DNA of 34,992 bases from Bacteroidota bacterium. GTDB lineage: Bacteria; Chloroflexota; Anaerolineae; Aggregatilineales; Phototrophicaceae. How positions within the stretch are numbered: position 1 is the first letter of the stretch; every line of letters begins with the position of its first letter. The notes under the pieces are model-generated. The model did no database searches and was not told the origin of the DNA. It saw nothing but the letters and a program-made list of their open reading frames with translations. Position numbers and translations under genes: made by a program. Shown here piece by piece: positions 26,387-34,992 of the stretch. The DNA lies in contig JAPUDW010000428.1 of assembly GCA_027492915.1 (NCBI GenBank), forward strand, positions 1 to 34,992. The letters run 5' to 3'.

Positions 26387-27901
26387 CTACTTGATGACTG
26401 CGGCTACGACAGTCAGCTTATCGGTCAGGTTGGTTGCAAGGAAAGGCAGAATACCCATCACAACCGTACCCGCAAAGGCGACGTAGATCGCCCAATTGAC
26501 GTATTCAGTCGCGCCTTCAGCCTTGTCGCCCTCACCATCACGCAGATACATGTTGACGATGATACGTAAGTAATAAAATGCGCTTACCACACTCGTCAGC
26601 ACGCCGATGATTGCCAGCGGGAGCAAGTTTGCTTCCAACGCCACACGGAACACATACCATTTACCGATGAAACCAGCGGTGAGCGGAATACCGGTGAGGC
26701 TGAGCATAAACACCGCCATCATAAAGGCAAGTGCGGGGCGGCTCTTTGCCAACCCGATGAAGTCTTCAAGGCTGGTTCCGCTACCGTCGTCCTTTTCAAT
26801 CGCCATCGCGACACCGAACGCGCCGAGGTTGGTGAACATATAGGCGATGAGATACAGAAGCGCAGCCTGAATTGAACCCACGCCCAGACCGGATGTACCC
26901 GCCGAGGCGACAGCCATCATAATGTAACCGGCATGAGCAATGGACGAGTAGGCCAGCATACGCTTGATATTCGTTTGGGCAATCGCCACGAAGTTACCAA
27001 GCAGGATGGTCGCCGCAGCCACCAACCAGAACGTTTGCTGCCACGCGGCAACCGTTTCACCACTCTTGAGGAAGAAGGTCGGCAGGGCAATTACGACGAT
27101 ACGCAGCAGCGCCGCGAAACCGCCAATCTTGGCACCAACGCTCATGAAAGCAGTCACGGGAGTGGGCGCACCTTCATAAACATCGGGCGTCCACATATGG
27201 AAAGGAACGACTGCTACTTTAAAACCGAGGCCAACTAAGATCAAGCCAGTACCTAGCAGCAGCAGGAATGCGGCAGAACCACCGGTCGCGACGATTTGCT
27301 CCACGCTGGAAAAAATTGCTGGCAGTGTAGTTGTACCGGTCGCGCCGAACACCAGCGCCGAACCATACACGAAGAATGCACTGGCAAACGCGCCGAGGAT
27401 AAAATACTTCATACCGCTTTCTTCCGAGCGCACATCCGGCACACGGAAAGCCGCCAAGATGTACAGCGGGATACTCAGCAGTTCCAGCGACACGAATATA
27501 GTCACCAGATCGTTCGCGCTTGCCATGAACATCATGCCGCTCAAGCTGAACAGGATCAGCGCGTAAAACTCACCGCGTTCGATTCCAGTACGCTTGAGGT
27601 AATCAATGCTCATCAGGATGCTAATGAAGCCGGTAACCAGCACAATGACATTCGCGATGCTGGTGAAGCCATCCGCCACAAACATACCTAAAAAGGCGGT
27701 TCCGCTTTCATTAAACGTGAACAAATTCACTATGAAGCTAAAAACAATTGTGCCGAGCGCCAAAAACGCCGTCACGATTTTGCGGTCACGCGGGATGAGT
27801 ACCACGTCGATCAGCAGCAGCAAACAAGCGCCGACTGCCAGCACCACACCGGGCGCGCTCATCCATACGTTTAAGTCAGCAAAACTCGGAACTGAAAACA
27901 T
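26387..27901 (-). CDS. nuoN: NADH-quinone oxidoreductase subunit N
   Basis: The protein is 504 residues, with AGGGG six bases before ATG 27901. NuoN is one of three antiporter-like proton-pumping subunits of the complex I membrane arm. The length is normal and about 14 helices are expected. Key charged residues are present: Glu140 in FVSLELLSIPLY and Lys228 in LGFKVAVVPFHMWTPDVYEGAPTPVTAFMS, the conserved lysine-helix segment. MLAYSSIAHAGYIMM marks the second half. It is the last gene of the operon, after nuoM with a 63-base gap that holds a terminator-like hairpin. Confidence 0.97.
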   Translation of the reverse strand: MFSVPSFADLNVWMSAPGVVLAVGACLLLLIDVVLIPRDRKIVTAFLALGTIVFSFIVNLFTFNESGTAFLGMFVADGFTSIANVIVLVTGFISILMSIDYLKRTGIERGEFYALILFSLSGMMFMASANDLVTIFVSLELLSIPLYILAAFRVPDVRSEESGMKYFILGAFASAFFVYGSALVFGATGTTTLPAIFSSVEQIVATGGSAAFLLLLGTGLILVGLGFKVAVVPFHMWTPDVYEGAPTPVTAFMSVGAKIGGFAALLRIVVIALPTFFLKSGETVAAWQQTFWLVAAATILLGNFVAIAQTNIKRMLAYSSIAHAGYIMMAVASAGTSGLGVGSIQAALLYLIAYMFTNLGAFGVAMAIEKDDGSGTSLEDFIGLAKSRPALAFMMAVFMLSLTGIPLTAGFIGKWYVFRVALEANLLPLAIIGVLTSVVSAFYYLRIIVNMYLRDGEGDKAEGATEYVNWAIYVAFAGTVVMGILPFLATNLTDKLTVVAAVIK

Positions 27902-27964: not shown

Positions 27965-29524
27965 TTAGCGCAGTACGGTACTCGCTACTGAATGGACGTT
28001 CTGAGCGATCTGTGTGACCGCCGGCCCCATCGAGTCGAAGAACACCTTCGGCTGCACACCAATCCAGATAATAACCACGATCATTGCAATCAAGACCGTG
28101 TATTCGCGCCAATTCGGCTTCTCAAGGTGGTTATTTTCTTCATGGGTCACATCACCCATGAACACCTTCTGGTACATGTACAGCATGTAAACGGCTGCCA
28201 AGATGACGCCGAGGGTTGCGAACAGTGCGTAGAAGAAACCGAGTGTCTCGCTGCCAAACGCGCCCATCAAAATGGTGAATTCGCCAACGAAGCCGTTCAA
28301 ACCGGGCAAGCCCATGCTGCTCAGGGTAATCACGAGGCTCAAGCCGCCAAACACAGGCAGAACCTTCCAGATACCACCATAAGCCGCGATGTCCTTGGTG
28401 TGGCGACGTTCATACAGCACACCGACGAGCAAGAACAAGCCGCCGGTACTAATACCGTGATTGACCATTTGCAAGATCGCGCCCTGAATACCGATGGTGT
28501 TCAGTGCGAAGATACCGAGGATAACGAAACCCATATGGCTGACCGAGGAGTAAGCCACGAGCTTCTTGACATCGGTTTGGGCGTAAGTGACCCATGCGCC
28601 GTAAATGATGCCGATAACCGCCAAGCCCGCGACAAACGGTGCCCATGCAACCGATGCCTGTGGGAACAGCGGCAGGCAGAAGCGGATGATGCCATAGGCA
28701 CCGAGCTTCAGCAGCACACCAGCCAGAATAACTGAGCCAGCGGTTGGGGACTGAACGTGGGCGTCTGGCAGCCAACTGTGGAATGGGAAAATCGGCACTT
28801 TGATAGCAAAAGCGATCAAGAAACCGAGGAACAGGAACGACTGCGTACTAAAGATGCCGCTGAACGGGAATACCAGACTGCCCGACTGGATCAGCGCGGT
28901 AATCGTCGGCAGGGAGAAAGTACCGGCGTTGATGCCCACATACAGGATCGCCAGCAGCATCAAGATCGAGCCAGCCATCGTGTACAGGAAGAACTTGACG
29001 GCGGCGTAAATGCGATTTTCCGCACCCCAGATGCCGATCAAGAAATACATCGGGACGAGCGTGACTTCCCAGAAGATGTAGAACATAAACAGGTCTTGGG
29101 CCATGAACACGCCCAACATGGCGAATTCCAGCAAGAGCATGAAGATGAAGTACAGGCGGTCACGTCCGCGTTCGTGCAGCACATGCACCCCGAACGAGCT
29201 GAGAATGGCGACCGGCATAATGAAGCCCGTCAGCACAATCAGCAGAATGCTTACGCCGTCCACACCCAGCGAGAAGCTGATGCCAATGCTCGGTATCCAC
29301 TCCATCTGCTGGACGAATTGCATACCGGGGTTAGAGGGGTTGAAGGTCGCCCACATAATGAGTGTGGCGATGAAGGTCGCACCGCTAAAACCAAGCGCCG
29401 TCCATTTAATATTCTCGTTTGCATGTCCGTGCTCATCATGCTCACGCATGAATAGCAGAGGGATAATCCCGATCAGTGGGAGAAATAACACCACTGTCGA
29501 GAGTGAAATCGCGGAACTTCCCAT
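27965..29524 (-). CDS. nuoM: NADH-quinone oxidoreductase subunit M
   Basis: The protein is 519 residues, with GAGGAG before ATG 29524. It is an antiporter-like proton-pumping subunit in the middle of the membrane arm. Glu153 in FYIFWEVTLVPMYFLIGIWG and Lys242 in FAIKVPIFPFHSWLPDAHVQSPTAGSVILAG are the conserved pumping residues; VAYSSVSHMGFV and GLPGLNGFVGEF are further family marks. The length is normal. A short HDEHGH stretch follows helix 1 (residues 29-34), a small echo of the His-rich inserts of NuoL. Confidence 0.97.
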   Translation of the reverse strand: MGSSAISLSTVVLFLPLIGIIPLLFMREHDEHGHANENIKWTALGFSGATFIATLIMWATFNPSNPGMQFVQQMEWIPSIGISFSLGVDGVSILLIVLTGFIMPVAILSSFGVHVLHERGRDRLYFIFMLLLEFAMLGVFMAQDLFMFYIFWEVTLVPMYFLIGIWGAENRIYAAVKFFLYTMAGSILMLLAILYVGINAGTFSLPTITALIQSGSLVFPFSGIFSTQSFLFLGFLIAFAIKVPIFPFHSWLPDAHVQSPTAGSVILAGVLLKLGAYGIIRFCLPLFPQASVAWAPFVAGLAVIGIIYGAWVTYAQTDVKKLVAYSSVSHMGFVILGIFALNTIGIQGAILQMVNHGISTGGLFLLVGVLYERRHTKDIAAYGGIWKVLPVFGGLSLVITLSSMGLPGLNGFVGEFTILMGAFGSETLGFFYALFATLGVILAAVYMLYMYQKVFMGDVTHEENNHLEKPNWREYTVLIAMIVVIIWIGVQPKVFFDSMGPAVTQIAQNVHSVASTVLR

Positions 29525-29590: not shown

Positions 29591-32098
29591 CTACCGTTGC
29601 AAGGCAGGGAGTATCAAAATCACGATGACCAGTACCACACCCAACATAAAACTGATGGCGTAAGTACGAACGTATCCGGTTTGCACCTTGCGCACACCAC
29701 CGCTGATCCAGCGCACGATGCGGGCGACACCGTTGACGATGCCGTCAATCAGGCCAATATCGACAGGCTTGCTCAGGAGTTGGGCAATCCCATTGAAGCC
29801 TTTGGCGATCACCGTATCGTGGAAGTAGTCGTGCCAGAAACGCCAGTCAAGGGTATTCGCCAAGAACTGCGACAGCTTATTAAAGGGATTCTCGAACAAC
29901 CGGAAGTAGGTTTCGTCCCAGTACAACCGCGCGTTCGCCAGCCCGAAGATCGTATCACCGCCCGAAACACGGTCAATCAATGGGTCATGGTCAGCCACAG
30001 TCGCCGATTTGCCCTTGCCGTAGATGGAACGTGCGGCAAAGATCGCGCCTAGCGCCAAAGCCAGTGCGAACAGGGCAACACCCGGTTGGAATTCCGCCGC
30101 GTGTACGTGAACAAGGCTGTGTTCCAGCCACGTCGTAAAGTTATGGGCGGTGAAAATATTTTCCAGCCCCAACACGTTTGAGGGTGTGTTCAAGAAGCCA
30201 CCGAAGATGCTCAAGAAAGCGAGCACGATCAGCGGGAAGGTCATCGAGAATACGCTTTCCGGCGCGTGGTCAGCAGCCTCGGTACGGGGTTGACCGAAGA
30301 ACACCATTTCAATTTGCCGCCACATATAGAAGGCTGTGAAAGCGGCTGCCGCGACAAGCAGTACGAAAACGATATAACCGCCAGCCGATGCGAGGAATGA
30401 GCTTGCGCCCAAACCCTTCAGCCACGAGTCCGCCAGAATTTCGTCCTTCGACCAGAAGCCAGCGAAGGGGAAGATACCGGCTAAAGCCAGTGTACCGACT
30501 ACGTAGGTGATAAAGGTGATGGGCATCCGACGAGCCAAGCCACCCATATTGCGCATGTCTTGCGGGTCAAAGTCGTGGTCGTCGTGATGCTCGTCACCAT
30601 GCCCATCGCCGTGGGCATCATGGGCGTCGTGTCCGTGGTCATCATGACCGTGACCGTGTGAACGGTGCGCCGCGTGGTGATGACCGTGTTCCATACCATG
30701 AATGACCGAACCGCTGCCAAGGAACAACAGCGCCTTGAAGAATGCATGTGTAACCAAGTGGAACATGGCCGCGCCGTATGCACCGACACCGACCGCCGCC
30801 ACCATGAAGCCAAGCTGGCTAACGGTACTGTAAGCCAGAACGCGCTTGATATCCCACTGCCCCAGCGCCACAAAACCAGCCATTAAAGCGGTTGTTGCGC
30901 CGACAATGGCGACAATGAATGAGGTCAGTTCAGCGTTATAGAAGAATACGTTGCTCCGGCACATCATGTATACGCCAGCCGTAACCATCGTCGCGGCGTG
31001 GATGAGCGCGCTAACGGGTGTTGGACCCGCCATCGCGTCCGGCAGCCAGACAAACAATGGGATTTGCGCGGATTTACCGGTCGCACCCAAGAGCATAAAC
31101 AAGGTGATAATCACCAGTACAGTTTCAATCGGCAATGAGAACGGGCCAAAGTCAACTTGATGGTGATCTTTTACCATCCGCTCGGCTTGACCAAATACGC
31201 CAAGCTGTTCGGTGGGGATATGGTCATTATTGGTATAAACGACACTGGTGGTTATGCCGTGACCGTCATCGGCAGCAGCTTCACCGTGACCACCTTCGGT
31301 AGTAGCGGCTGCTGCGCCATGTGCGTCAGTTTCAGCGGGTACTGCTTCACCGTGGCTATCGGTGGCAGCGGCCTCACCATGCTCACCTTCAGCGGGAGCA
31401 GCCCCATGCTCACTGGTTTCGCCATGAGCGCCTGCATTAATGTTGGCAATTTCGCCGGGGCGATAATAATCGAGGGTGCCGAACGTCCAGAACATCAGGA
31501 AAACGGCAGTTAAAATACCGAAGTCTCCCACACGGTTCAAGATCATGGCTTTACGAGCGGCGTTACTGTTCTTCCAACCCACACCATTCGGACGGTCAAA
31601 CCAAAAACCGATGAGGAGGAACGAGCAGACGCCCACGCCTTCCCAGCCGACGAACATCATCAAGAAGTTGTTGCCCGTCACCAGAATGAGCATGAAGAAC
31701 AAGAACAAGTTCAGGTAGGTAAAGAAGCGGGAGAAACGCGGATCGCCGTGCATATATCCGGCGGCGTAAATGTGAATGAGCGAGCCTACACCCGTCACCA
31801 CCAGCATCATCGTCACACTGAGCGTATCAACACGCATTTGCCACGGGATGCTCACATTTGCAGTGCCGATTTGAATCCAGCCATCCAAGAACGGCGGGTT
31901 TACGACAACCGACTCATAGCCGCTGCCGCGCAGGTACGCCCACAGCAGTACCGCCACCGCGAACGACAAGAGCGCCGCTGTTGTGCCGAGGATACTCGAC
32001 AGCCGTTCGCCCAGCCGCGGCCCCACAAACAGGTTTAATATAAACCCGATGAGCGGGATAAAAAGAATGAGTGTCACTAATGACGGGTAATTTTCCAT
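29591..32098 (-). CDS. nuoL: NADH-quinone oxidoreductase subunit L with two His-rich insertions
   Basis: The protein is 835 residues against about 610-660 in most bacteria. GAGG lies before ATG 32098. NuoL is the distal antiporter-like subunit, with a lateral helix linking the pump units. Core residues are kept: Glu153 in GWEGVGVCSFLLIGFW, Lys342 in GKSAQIPLFVWLPDAM and Lys551 in GFWSKDEIL. Two insertions explain the extra length. Residues about 216-316 contain repeated HG-E-A units. Residues about 469-509 are very rich in His and Asp (HGHHHAAH, HGHGHDDHGHDAHDAHGDGH). By helix count the first faces outside and the second the cytoplasm. Both could bind metal ions or protons. The C-terminal helical part (residues 670-835) is present. 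Confidence 0.97.
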   Translation of the reverse strand: MENYPSLVTLILFIPLIGFILNLFVGPRLGERLSSILGTTAALLSFAVAVLLWAYLRGSGYESVVVNPPFLDGWIQIGTANVSIPWQMRVDTLSVTMMLVVTGVGSLIHIYAAGYMHGDPRFSRFFTYLNLFLFFMLILVTGNNFLMMFVGWEGVGVCSFLLIGFWFDRPNGVGWKNSNAARKAMILNRVGDFGILTAVFLMFWTFGTLDYYRPGEIANINAGAHGETSEHGAAPAEGEHGEAAATDSHGEAVPAETDAHGAAAATTEGGHGEAAADDGHGITTSVVYTNNDHIPTEQLGVFGQAERMVKDHHQVDFGPFSLPIETVLVIITLFMLLGATGKSAQIPLFVWLPDAMAGPTPVSALIHAATMVTAGVYMMCRSNVFFYNAELTSFIVAIVGATTALMAGFVALGQWDIKRVLAYSTVSQLGFMVAAVGVGAYGAAMFHLVTHAFFKALLFLGSGSVIHGMEHGHHHAAHRSHGHGHDDHGHDAHDAHGDGHGDEHHDDHDFDPQDMRNMGGLARRMPITFITYVVGTLALAGIFPFAGFWSKDEILADSWLKGLGASSFLASAGGYIVFVLLVAAAAFTAFYMWRQIEMVFFGQPRTEAADHAPESVFSMTFPLIVLAFLSIFGGFLNTPSNVLGLENIFTAHNFTTWLEHSLVHVHAAEFQPGVALFALALALGAIFAARSIYGKGKSATVADHDPLIDRVSGGDTIFGLANARLYWDETYFRLFENPFNKLSQFLANTLDWRFWHDYFHDTVIAKGFNGIAQLLSKPVDIGLIDGIVNGVARIVRWISGGVRKVQTGYVRTYAISFMLGVVLVIVILILPALQR

Positions 32099-32185: not shown

Positions 32186-32488
32186 CTACCCTTCCATCTG
32201 GTGCAATTCGTCGACGTTGATACTTTTCTTAGTGCGGAAGATTGCCACAATCAATGCAAGGCCAACCGCGACTTCGGCGGCTGCGACCGCAATGACGAAG
32301 AACACAAACAAGTGCCCTTCCATCTGGTTCCACTGCTTGGCAAAAGCGACCAGCGCAAGGTTCGCCGCGTTCAACATCAGTTCAACCGACATGAACAGTA
32401 GGATGGCATTCTTCTTTAAAAGCACGCCCATCGCACCAAGAATAAACAACACCGCGCTCAACATTACAAAATCGGTTGTATGAAGCAT
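32186..32488 (-). CDS. nuoK: NADH-quinone oxidoreductase subunit K
   Basis: The protein is 100 residues, the standard length, with AGGAG ten bases before ATG 32488. Three helices. The proton-channel glutamates Glu36 (LLFMSVELMLNAANL) and Glu72 (VAAAEVAVGLALIVAIFR) are at exactly the positions known from E. coli. It lies 29 bases after nuoJ and 87 bases before nuoL. The nuoK-nuoL gap has no clear element beyond a long-range GTACTG/CAGTAC pair. Confidence 0.97.
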   Translation of the reverse strand: MLHTTDFVMLSAVLFILGAMGVLLKKNAILLFMSVELMLNAANLALVAFAKQWNQMEGHLFVFFVIAVAAAEVAVGLALIVAIFRTKKSINVDELHQMEG

Positions 32489-32517: not shown

Positions 32518-33834
32518 TTAGTCGCCAGCCGCCGGTTCACTTTGTTGTGCTGGCAAACGCGGCACAGCCTCACCTGCCACATCCTGACCAATCTGGTCGC
32601 CAATGACGTTGGTCAGCGGCTTCATCACCTTACGCCGGACATCGCGGCGGCGGGGTTGGAAGCCTTCTTTGTGGGTCAAGGTAATCGCACCGACCATTGC
32701 GGCCAGCAGCAGAATAGCGATCAGTTGGAAGGGCAGCATGTACTTGCTAAACAGTAAATTACCAATCGACTGCGGGCTACCAAACGGTTCAACGGCCTTA
32801 TCCACCAAGGGAATAGCGACGTTGCGTGTGCTGCCATCCAGCAATTCTTCGGTTCCAATCACCAGCAGTTGCGATGTATCGCGCTTAATGGTGTAAACTT
32901 CGAGATTGTTCAGGTTCGCCACGCGCAGCAGTTTGCTATAGTCAGGCTGGTTCGCGTCCACTTCGGTGAACACCCACGAACGCTGGGTCGCATCTTCGCT
33001 GATGAGTGGCAGCTCGACCAACGCGCCCGGTTGAATATCGGCCTGAATAATTCGGTCATCACGCAGCGACAAATTCGTTTCAGCGTTATCCGAATCAGCA
33101 CCGAAGTCAATCAGGTTCAAAGGCTTATCATAACCGTTGAAAATAGCGACCCGTGCTGTCCGCGCATCCACCGATTCGACATTGCTTTCGACAAGGCTGA
33201 CAGTCGGCGGGGTGCTTTTCGTACCGCCATAAGCAACTGCGGTATAAGCGTTTGCCTGACGTGTGGTTTCACCAGAGAGCGAGAAGTTCACCGTCTGCAC
33301 AACATCAGTTGTACCGGCGGGGTTCAAGGTCACTGTGTAATCACCCGGCTCAACTGGTTGAAAACTAGTCGCCTTACCGAAGGCCAAATTGCTTGCAAAC
33401 AACTCGCCATTGGCGTACACATCCACGGCTCCGGCATACGGCGCGGCATGAACCACGCGCAGTTCCGGTTGGCGATTGATCGTACCATTCAGGTCAATTT
33501 TGCCGGTGCTGATGCTGTAGAACGACACCACCGCGAATGACACACCTAAAGCGGTTGCGACAATTTCTAACCAGCGGAAACGGCGTACCGGCAAGGTTGT
33601 TTTTTCTGCCCCTAAGAGCATGATTACAAATAAGAACAACACCATAATCGCCCCGGCGTATACAGCAATTTGTATCATCGCAAGGAAAGGTGCGTCCAAC
33701 ATCAGGTACAACAGCGCAACACAGGCAAAGTTCACAATGAGGAACAGTGCGCTGTGGACGGCGTTATCGCTCAACAGCATAAATACTGCCGCGAATACTG
33801 CCATACCCATCACAATAATAAACAGTGCTTCCAT
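32518..33834 (-). CDS. nuoJ: NADH-quinone oxidoreductase subunit J with DUF4397-like insertion
   Basis: The protein is 438 residues; ordinary NuoJ is about 170-200. Residues 1-108 hold four helices: the start with MEALFIIVMGMAVFAAVFMLL, SALFLIVNFACVALLYLML, IQIAVYAGAIMVLFLFVIMLLGAEK (the highly conserved NuoJ helix) and WLEIVATALGVSFAVVSFYSI. The fifth, SKYMLPFQLIAILLLAAMVGAITLTHK, is at 363-389. Between them residues about 110-357 form an insertion. Its first half (124-210) starts LRVVHAAPYAGAVDVYANGE and contains LAFGKATSFQPVEPGDYTVTLNPAG, the clear pattern of DUF4397 beta-sandwich domains. Residues 226-345 may be a second, diverged copy. Basic residues in the loop before helix 4 and in the C-terminal tail (PRRRDVRRK) put the insertion on the outer face. 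The C-terminus is about 50 residues longer than usual. Confidence 0.93.
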   Translation of the reverse strand: MEALFIIVMGMAVFAAVFMLLSDNAVHSALFLIVNFACVALLYLMLDAPFLAMIQIAVYAGAIMVLFLFVIMLLGAEKTTLPVRRFRWLEIVATALGVSFAVVSFYSISTGKIDLNGTINRQPELRVVHAAPYAGAVDVYANGELFASNLAFGKATSFQPVEPGDYTVTLNPAGTTDVVQTVNFSLSGETTRQANAYTAVAYGGTKSTPPTVSLVESNVESVDARTARVAIFNGYDKPLNLIDFGADSDNAETNLSLRDDRIIQADIQPGALVELPLISEDATQRSWVFTEVDANQPDYSKLLRVANLNNLEVYTIKRDTSQLLVIGTEELLDGSTRNVAIPLVDKAVEPFGSPQSIGNLLFSKYMLPFQLIAILLLAAMVGAITLTHKEGFQPRRRDVRRKVMKPLTNVIGDQIGQDVAGEAVPRLPAQQSEPAAGD

Positions 33835-34069: not shown

Positions 34070-34564
34070 CTAGAGCGGGTTTTGCATATCCGGTATCGAG
34101 CGTGTGTAAACGCCCTTTTCCACCGTTTGTGGCGTATCCGGCTTGCCTTCCGGCGGCGGGTCAATCAGCATATCCTTGGTAAAAATCGCGTCGCGGCGGT
34201 CGGTGAAGCTCATGCGATGTTCATGCCCCAGCACAATGGCCTCGGTCGGGCAAGCATCTTCGCAGTAGCCACAGAAAATGCAGCGCAGCATGTTAATTTC
34301 GTAGGTCTTGGCATAACGTTCGCCGGGGCTGTAACGCTCCTCGTCCGTATTCTCTGCTGCCTCAACCCAGATCGCGTCCGCAGGGCATGAAGCCGCGCAT
34401 AACGCGCAACCGATACACTTCTCCAAGCCGTTGTCGTAGCGCTTGAGTTCGTGCCGTCCCTTATAGCGTTCAGAAAATTCCTGCACCTGTTCTGGATATT
34501 GAATCGTAACGGGTGTTTCCAGCAGGTGCTTAAATGTTGTTGCAAAACCGCGTATGACGTTCAT
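34070..34564 (-). CDS. nuoI: NADH-quinone oxidoreductase subunit I
   Basis: The protein is 164 residues. GAGGAG lies 11 bases before ATG 34564. NuoI carries iron-sulfur clusters N6a and N6b in the peripheral arm, passing electrons towards N2 and quinone. Both 4Fe-4S motifs are complete: Cys50, 53, 56 and 60 (CIGCALCAASCP) and Cys95, 98, 101 and 105 (CIFCGYCEDACP). The length and order of segments are normal, with a somewhat long C-terminal tail (residues 130-164). It is followed by nuoJ after an unusually wide gap. Confidence 0.97.
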   Translation of the reverse strand: MNVIRGFATTFKHLLETPVTIQYPEQVQEFSERYKGRHELKRYDNGLEKCIGCALCAASCPADAIWVEAAENTDEERYSPGERYAKTYEINMLRCIFCGYCEDACPTEAIVLGHEHRMSFTDRRDAIFTKDMLIDPPPEGKPDTPQTVEKGVYTRSIPDMQNPL

Positions 34565-34643: not shown

Positions 34644-34992
34644 CTACTTAGCCTTCTTCTCGCGGATCTTGGCGAGCATGGCTTCCTTGTCGAACTTCGG
34701 CTTGGCACCAGCGGCTGGCTTGGGCGCGTCCGCAGCAGGCGCAGCAGCTACCGGAGGTGCAGCCGTTTCAGCCGCTACAACGGTTGGCGCCGCAGCTACA
34801 GCTTCAACTGCCGGAGCAGCTTTCTTGACCGATGCGGCTATCGTCTTTTGGGCGGGTAAAGCCTCGCCACCGAACGTACCGTACTGCTTGGCAAAGGTAA
34901 CGCTGGGGTTTTCCGGCTTCTTCGGTGCTTCCGGCTCAACATAATTTGGGCTGGTCGCCGCAATCTTTTGCAGTTGGTCAATGGCGAAAGAC
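34644..34992 (-). CDS. C-terminal tail of the gene upstream of nuoI (cut by window edge)
   Basis: 116 residues are visible, ending at TAG 34644 with a second TAG directly after it. They start SFAIDQLQKIAATSPNYVEP, then PKKPENPSVTFAKQYGTFGGEAL. An Ala/Pro/Val-rich stretch of about 45 residues follows, then a basic end FDKEAMLAKIREKKAK. No catalytic motif or membrane helix is visible. In common operon order nuoH precedes nuoI, so this could be an unusual tail of NuoH, or a separate subunit. The identity is open. The tail is probably soluble and flexible. Confidence 0.7.
   Translation of the reverse strand, partial: SFAIDQLQKIAATSPNYVEPEAPKKPENPSVTFAKQYGTFGGEALPAQKTIAASVKKAAPAVEAVAAAPTVVAAETAAPPVAAAPAADAPKPAAGAKPKFDKEAMLAKIREKKAK

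Follow-up and report, generated by a model that had tools for sequence, protein, structure and literature searches.

Few biological machines are as highly conserved as the membrane core of respiratory complex I. The enzyme is usually thought to grow through added subunits, not through domain insertions into its core membrane subunits. One of these, NuoJ, is tied to coupling and to the active/deactive transition. In E. coli complex I, the NuoG G-loop and C-terminal extensions are insertions that have been interpreted as stabilizing (PMC8357420). Outside complex I, an extracellular domain of the mammalian peptide transporters PepT1 and PepT2 offers the closest structural parallel to the feature described here. 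It consists of two immunoglobulin-like sandwiches arranged in tandem between TM9 and TM10, is missing in homologues from bacteria, plants, and fungi, and binds trypsin, and in PepT2 it has no obvious role in substrate specificity or transport (PMC4597091).

The window, meaning the whole stretch of DNA that was analyzed, is a 34,992-bp contig (C428) that belongs to a draft genome of 6.86 Mb assembled as 445 contigs. On its minus strand, a nuo operon is represented by its distal half. The contig end cuts nuoH, and the C-terminal tail that remains (34644..34991) matches the end of a 628-aa NuoH ORF in another genome, G012. Then follow nuoI (34070..34564), which has 4Fe-4S domains and is 92-95% identical in congeners, nuoJ (32518..33834), and nuoK (32186..32488; Pfam Oxidored_q2, E=4.3e-29). 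The remaining genes are nuoL (29591..32098; Pfam Proton_antipo_M/N), nuoM (27965..29524), and nuoN (26387..27901). NuoL carries two histidine-rich loops, such as HGHGHDDHGHDAHDAHGDGHGDEHHDDHD, with a total of 40 His, and these are possibly metal-binding.

Relatives with long flanking sequences preserve the complete operon order C-D-E-F-(small TPR protein)-G-H-I-J-K-L-M-N, and thus the operon encodes an NADH-oxidizing enzyme. The gene for the small TPR protein is conserved in the operon (L113:3692-4111), and several relatives have it between nuoF and nuoG. Its product may be an accessory subunit or an assembly factor. In family f1, NuoH has an N-terminal extension with one or more extra hydrophobic segments and a long C-terminal tail (L113:6660-8351; L200:15243-17126, minus strand). 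The genome of the window also encodes a second, ordinary NuoJ of 178 aa on another contig. At a contig end of the same genome (L203:8795-10627) lies a second, ordinary nuoH-nuoJ pair with no nuoI between the two genes.

The nuoJ gene in the window is an uninterrupted ORF of 438 codons plus a stop. The initial annotation described it as a continuous gene with a long insertion between helices 4 and 5, and this description holds. The Oxidored_q3 family (PF00499) matches NuoJ with E=3.4e-38 in two stretches on either side of an inserted ectodomain of ~240 residues (~residues 112-352; 32779..33501), which lies inside the interval 32764-33507 originally assigned to it. Residues 1-110 (33505..33834) comprise TM1-TM4 of the Oxidored_q3 core, as defined by Pfam and an AlphaFold model, and include a YAGAIMVLF motif that is invariant in the aligned core. 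Beyond the insert, an FGSP motif and TM5 occupy residues 353-390 (32665..32778), as placed by the alignment and the model. All five expected membrane helices can be recognized in the full-length model, four before the insert (2-21, 25-44, 49-79, and 87-110) and a helical pair after it (354-388, broken at 365), although these helices are poorly modelled and have low confidence.

Comparison with the Pfam DUF4397 profile (PF14344), the check proposed with the original domain call, identifies residues 124-233 as DUF4397 with E=5.1e-18 and 66.2 bits against a gathering cut-off of 30.6. This match excludes an insertion without any domain match and bears out the earlier identification of its first half; the motifs quoted at that time are present, and Pfam finds both Oxidored_q3 and DUF4397 in 26 of 26 aligned relatives. 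We refer to this half as lobe 1 (about residues 121-222; 33169..33474), and its pLDDT in the full-length model is about 90. For the second half, or lobe 2 (about residues 223-348; 32791..33168), four of the five sequences compared yield no Pfam match, and one yields a DUF4397 match of 22.4 bits, below the cut-off. When profiles built from the 26 sequences are compared with hhalign, the two lobes match with 88-94% probability (E about 2e-7 in a single pairwise test) and align in register across most of their length. Together with the strands of the model, this profile match suggests that lobe 2 is a further, diverged DUF4397-like sandwich in tandem with lobe 1.

An AlphaFold prediction based on eleven aligned homologues gives the insert ~eight strands per half and a bilobed beta-sandwich form, with a pLDDT of 83 and a pTM of 0.81 when the insert is modelled alone. 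Mean identity among the 26 sequences is 62% for the helix core, 33% for lobe 1, and 27% for lobe 2; the lobes retain their fold while their sequence is free to drift. Few residues of the insert are invariant (P12, R15, D27, L75, R117, L212, F240, and G241 in alignment numbering), and these look structural. A role as a ligand- or metal-binding ectodomain was rejected on the composition of the insert, which has no Cys and a single His, and on the lack of a conserved polar cluster visible in the alignment.

In a Foldseek search with the insert model, PepT1 and PepT2 are the sole matches below E=0.001. VIA-align superimposes the model on the PepT2 extracellular domain, the best match across the full insert, with a Z score of 15.0 over 177 aligned residues (rmsd 3.0, 16% identity). 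HGSNAT comes next at a Z of about 10, then AlgF at 8-9 and, at about 7, transthyretin-like folds. Searching PDB sequences with the insert profile returns chance-level matches only and no PepT protein up to E=1.

Charge distribution indicates the side of the membrane on which the insert resides. The loop between TM3 and TM4 carries 4 K/R and the C-terminus 9 K/R, while the insert is acidic, with 18 K/R versus 32 D/E, and NuoJ topology is conserved among complex I structures. For these reasons we infer that the insert is extracytoplasmic and lies on the P-side face of the membrane arm, in agreement with the initial annotation, which had placed it outside the membrane by the positive-inside rule.

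The insert is widespread within one order of the class Anaerolineae. Insert-bearing NuoJ proteins of 400-490 residues, the long homologues that were to be sought in follow-up, occur in 93 of the 98 genomes of the family to which the window belongs, which is every genome in which the gene was found. The remaining five show no match to NuoI of the operon either, which means that those genomes, or their assemblies, lack the operon. Four other families of the order (f2, f3, f4, and f7) also carry the insert, bringing the distribution to at least five families. One insert-bearing genome, G058, comprises just one contig (5,631,885 bp) and has a NuoJ ORF of 485 codons (L201:9982-11436) with a DUF4397 match of E=2.9e-12. 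Phototrophicus methaneseepsis ZRK33, an isolate of the family Phototrophicaceae, likewise has a one-contig genome (PMC8941918). In a sample of 298 genomes from the class, the insert was seen only in the order of the window, and the best-matching NuoJ frames outside this order are mostly 165-290 codons long with no insert match. A wider search of genome contigs recovered at least 10 full-length matches, and among the matches listed all are Chloroflexota records.

Searches of the literature found no paper treating DUF4397 together with complex I, and by their titles the DUF4397 papers are not on complex I. Articles on NuoJ and Chloroflexi include none on subunit structure as judged by title and abstract. 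Complex I itself is well known; the insert apparently has no published description in the literature searched.

Among close congeners, dN/dS for both lobes is about 0.05-0.13 where computable, with a value of 0.21 for lobe 2 in one more distant pair, and these values are indicative only because dS is close to saturation. They point to purifying selection on the insert. To place the insert in the history of the order, we refer to a FastTree phylogeny with local supports built from concatenated NuoG-H-I-K-L-M-N, in which f1, f2, and f4 represent the insert clade; f3 and f7 were left out for having too few genes. Family f8, which lacks the insert, is the first branch. Families f5 and f6, likewise without an insert in NuoJ, form a clade that is the sister group of the insert-bearing one. 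Genome G108 is nested inside f2 and retains the operon, but its NuoJ ORF has only 214 codons. The insert thus appears to have been lost there while the operon was kept, which indicates that the enzyme core can do without it. Relatives without the segment (f5, f6, f8, and G108), regarded at the outset as a sign against a genuine insertion, therefore do exist, but one gain and one loss account for them on the tree, which we consider the simplest history. The genome of the window encodes proteins with DUF4397 in tandem, whose N-termini are signal- or lipoprotein-like and which are 34-40% identical to the insert in their best segments, and it is plausible from this resemblance that the insert derives from such secreted proteins of the lineage.

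The sister clade has a different insertion. In f5 and f6, NuoH (L190:11247-12800, L205:10818-12308, and L194:13608-15062; minus strand) is longer by about 100 residues, which lie between two consecutive helices, the first of them following the quinone-binding loop. This segment matches Baseplate_J with E=2e-4 to 3e-7 in whole NuoH, and all three matches are above the family cut-off, one of them barely. Within the order only these three genomes carry it in NuoH, and it is absent from the families with the NuoJ insert, such that the two inserts are mutually exclusive in a sample where f5 and f6 amount to three genomes only. NuoH topology places the segment outside the membrane. These observations fit a scheme in which two different beta inserts occupy adjacent subunits on the same membrane face of the same enzyme, with the NuoH insert gained separately. 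Many genomes of the order also encode ~515-550-residue proteins with a Baseplate_J-like region resembling the NuoH insert (for example G058:C1:3329601-3329885), and these are possible donors.

We favor, with a probability of about 60%, a model in which the NuoJ insert is a non-catalytic structural or docking ectodomain that was gained once. In this model, the extracytoplasmic TM4-TM5 loop of NuoJ would have received an ectodomain of tandem DUF4397 units, whose two lobes would each fold on their own at the outer (P-side) surface of the membrane arm. The lobes would carry out no catalysis and might stabilize the NuoH-NuoA-NuoJ-NuoK part of the arm, bind a periplasmic or respiratory partner, or both, by comparison with PepT1 and PepT2. 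The initial suggestions that the insert caps the membrane arm, holds a supercomplex together, or ties complex I to the cell envelope remain plausible.

A narrower form of this model, whose probability is counted within that of a structural or docking ectodomain in general, holds that the lobes bind one specific partner, such as a quinol oxidase, ACIII, a periplasmic cytochrome, or a wall component, and thereby position complex I in a supercomplex or tether it to the envelope. The predicted fold resembles those of the trypsin-binding PepT domain (PMC4597091) and the periplasmic protein AlgF, and two independent P-side inserts on the neighboring subunits NuoJ and NuoH would suit such a role. However, the fast divergence of the lobes relative to the core disfavors one conserved strong binding site, there is no obvious conserved patch in the alignment, and no partner gene is linked within the operon. 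We regard a dedicated partner as somewhat doubtful. The same divergence, along with the loss in G108, might instead be expected of a near-neutral passenger domain that arrived through a recombinational fusion into a loop permissive enough to tolerate it, but retention across five families under purifying selection, with insert length and two-lobed build conserved, makes this distinctly improbable. That the feature is an assembly chimera or a misread gene might be suspected from a 35-kb piece of a 445-contig assembly. This explanation has essentially no remaining likelihood and is refuted by the same structure in dozens of independent genomes, one of them the single-contig G058, which also eliminates the assembly join considered earlier. 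The two-lobed insert in NuoJ is confirmed as real and is no artefact.

Returning to the structural or docking role, the NuoJ ectodomain and its independent NuoH counterpart constitute a natural experiment on the load tolerated by the outer face of the proximal arm. We tentatively entertain the broader idea, at somewhat less than even odds, that complex I of this one order repeatedly gained P-side beta-sandwich ectodomains on its proximal arm (tandem DUF4397 in NuoJ, Baseplate_J-like in NuoH) as a fused bacterial counterpart of the mitochondrial P-side supernumerary subunits, serving arm stability or supercomplexes. With a cultured isolate and deposited proteomics, the NuoJ ectodomain is testable now.

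Compared with known complex I subunits, the protein shares with NuoJ/ND6 (e.g. PDB 4hea and 8e9g) the same five-helix core, the YAGAIMVLF motif, and a gene position between nuoI and nuoK. However, the solved NuoJ homologues listed are 145-252 aa long and none matches the insert, whereas this one has 438 aa and a two-lobed insert. The E. coli NuoG insertion is similarly lineage-specific and in a bacterial complex I subunit, but it consists of 94 residues in the peripheral arm, in contrast to a beta domain on the P side. The secreted DUF4397 (PF14344) proteins share sequence family, tandem arrangement, and genome with the insert; those inspected start with a signal- or lipoprotein-like segment, whereas the NuoJ copy is inside a respiratory membrane subunit. 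The luminal domain of HGSNAT is also a beta-sandwich lobe in a membrane protein, but it is a single lobe, belongs to an enzyme, and has no sequence link to the NuoJ insert. PepT1 and PepT2 (PDB 5a9h, 5a9i, and 5a9d) are likewise polytopic proteins with two sandwiches in tandem that face outside and lie between two of their helices. They are unrelated to the NuoJ case in host protein, domain of life, and sequence, and the likeness is taken here as one of build, with no claim to shared ancestry.
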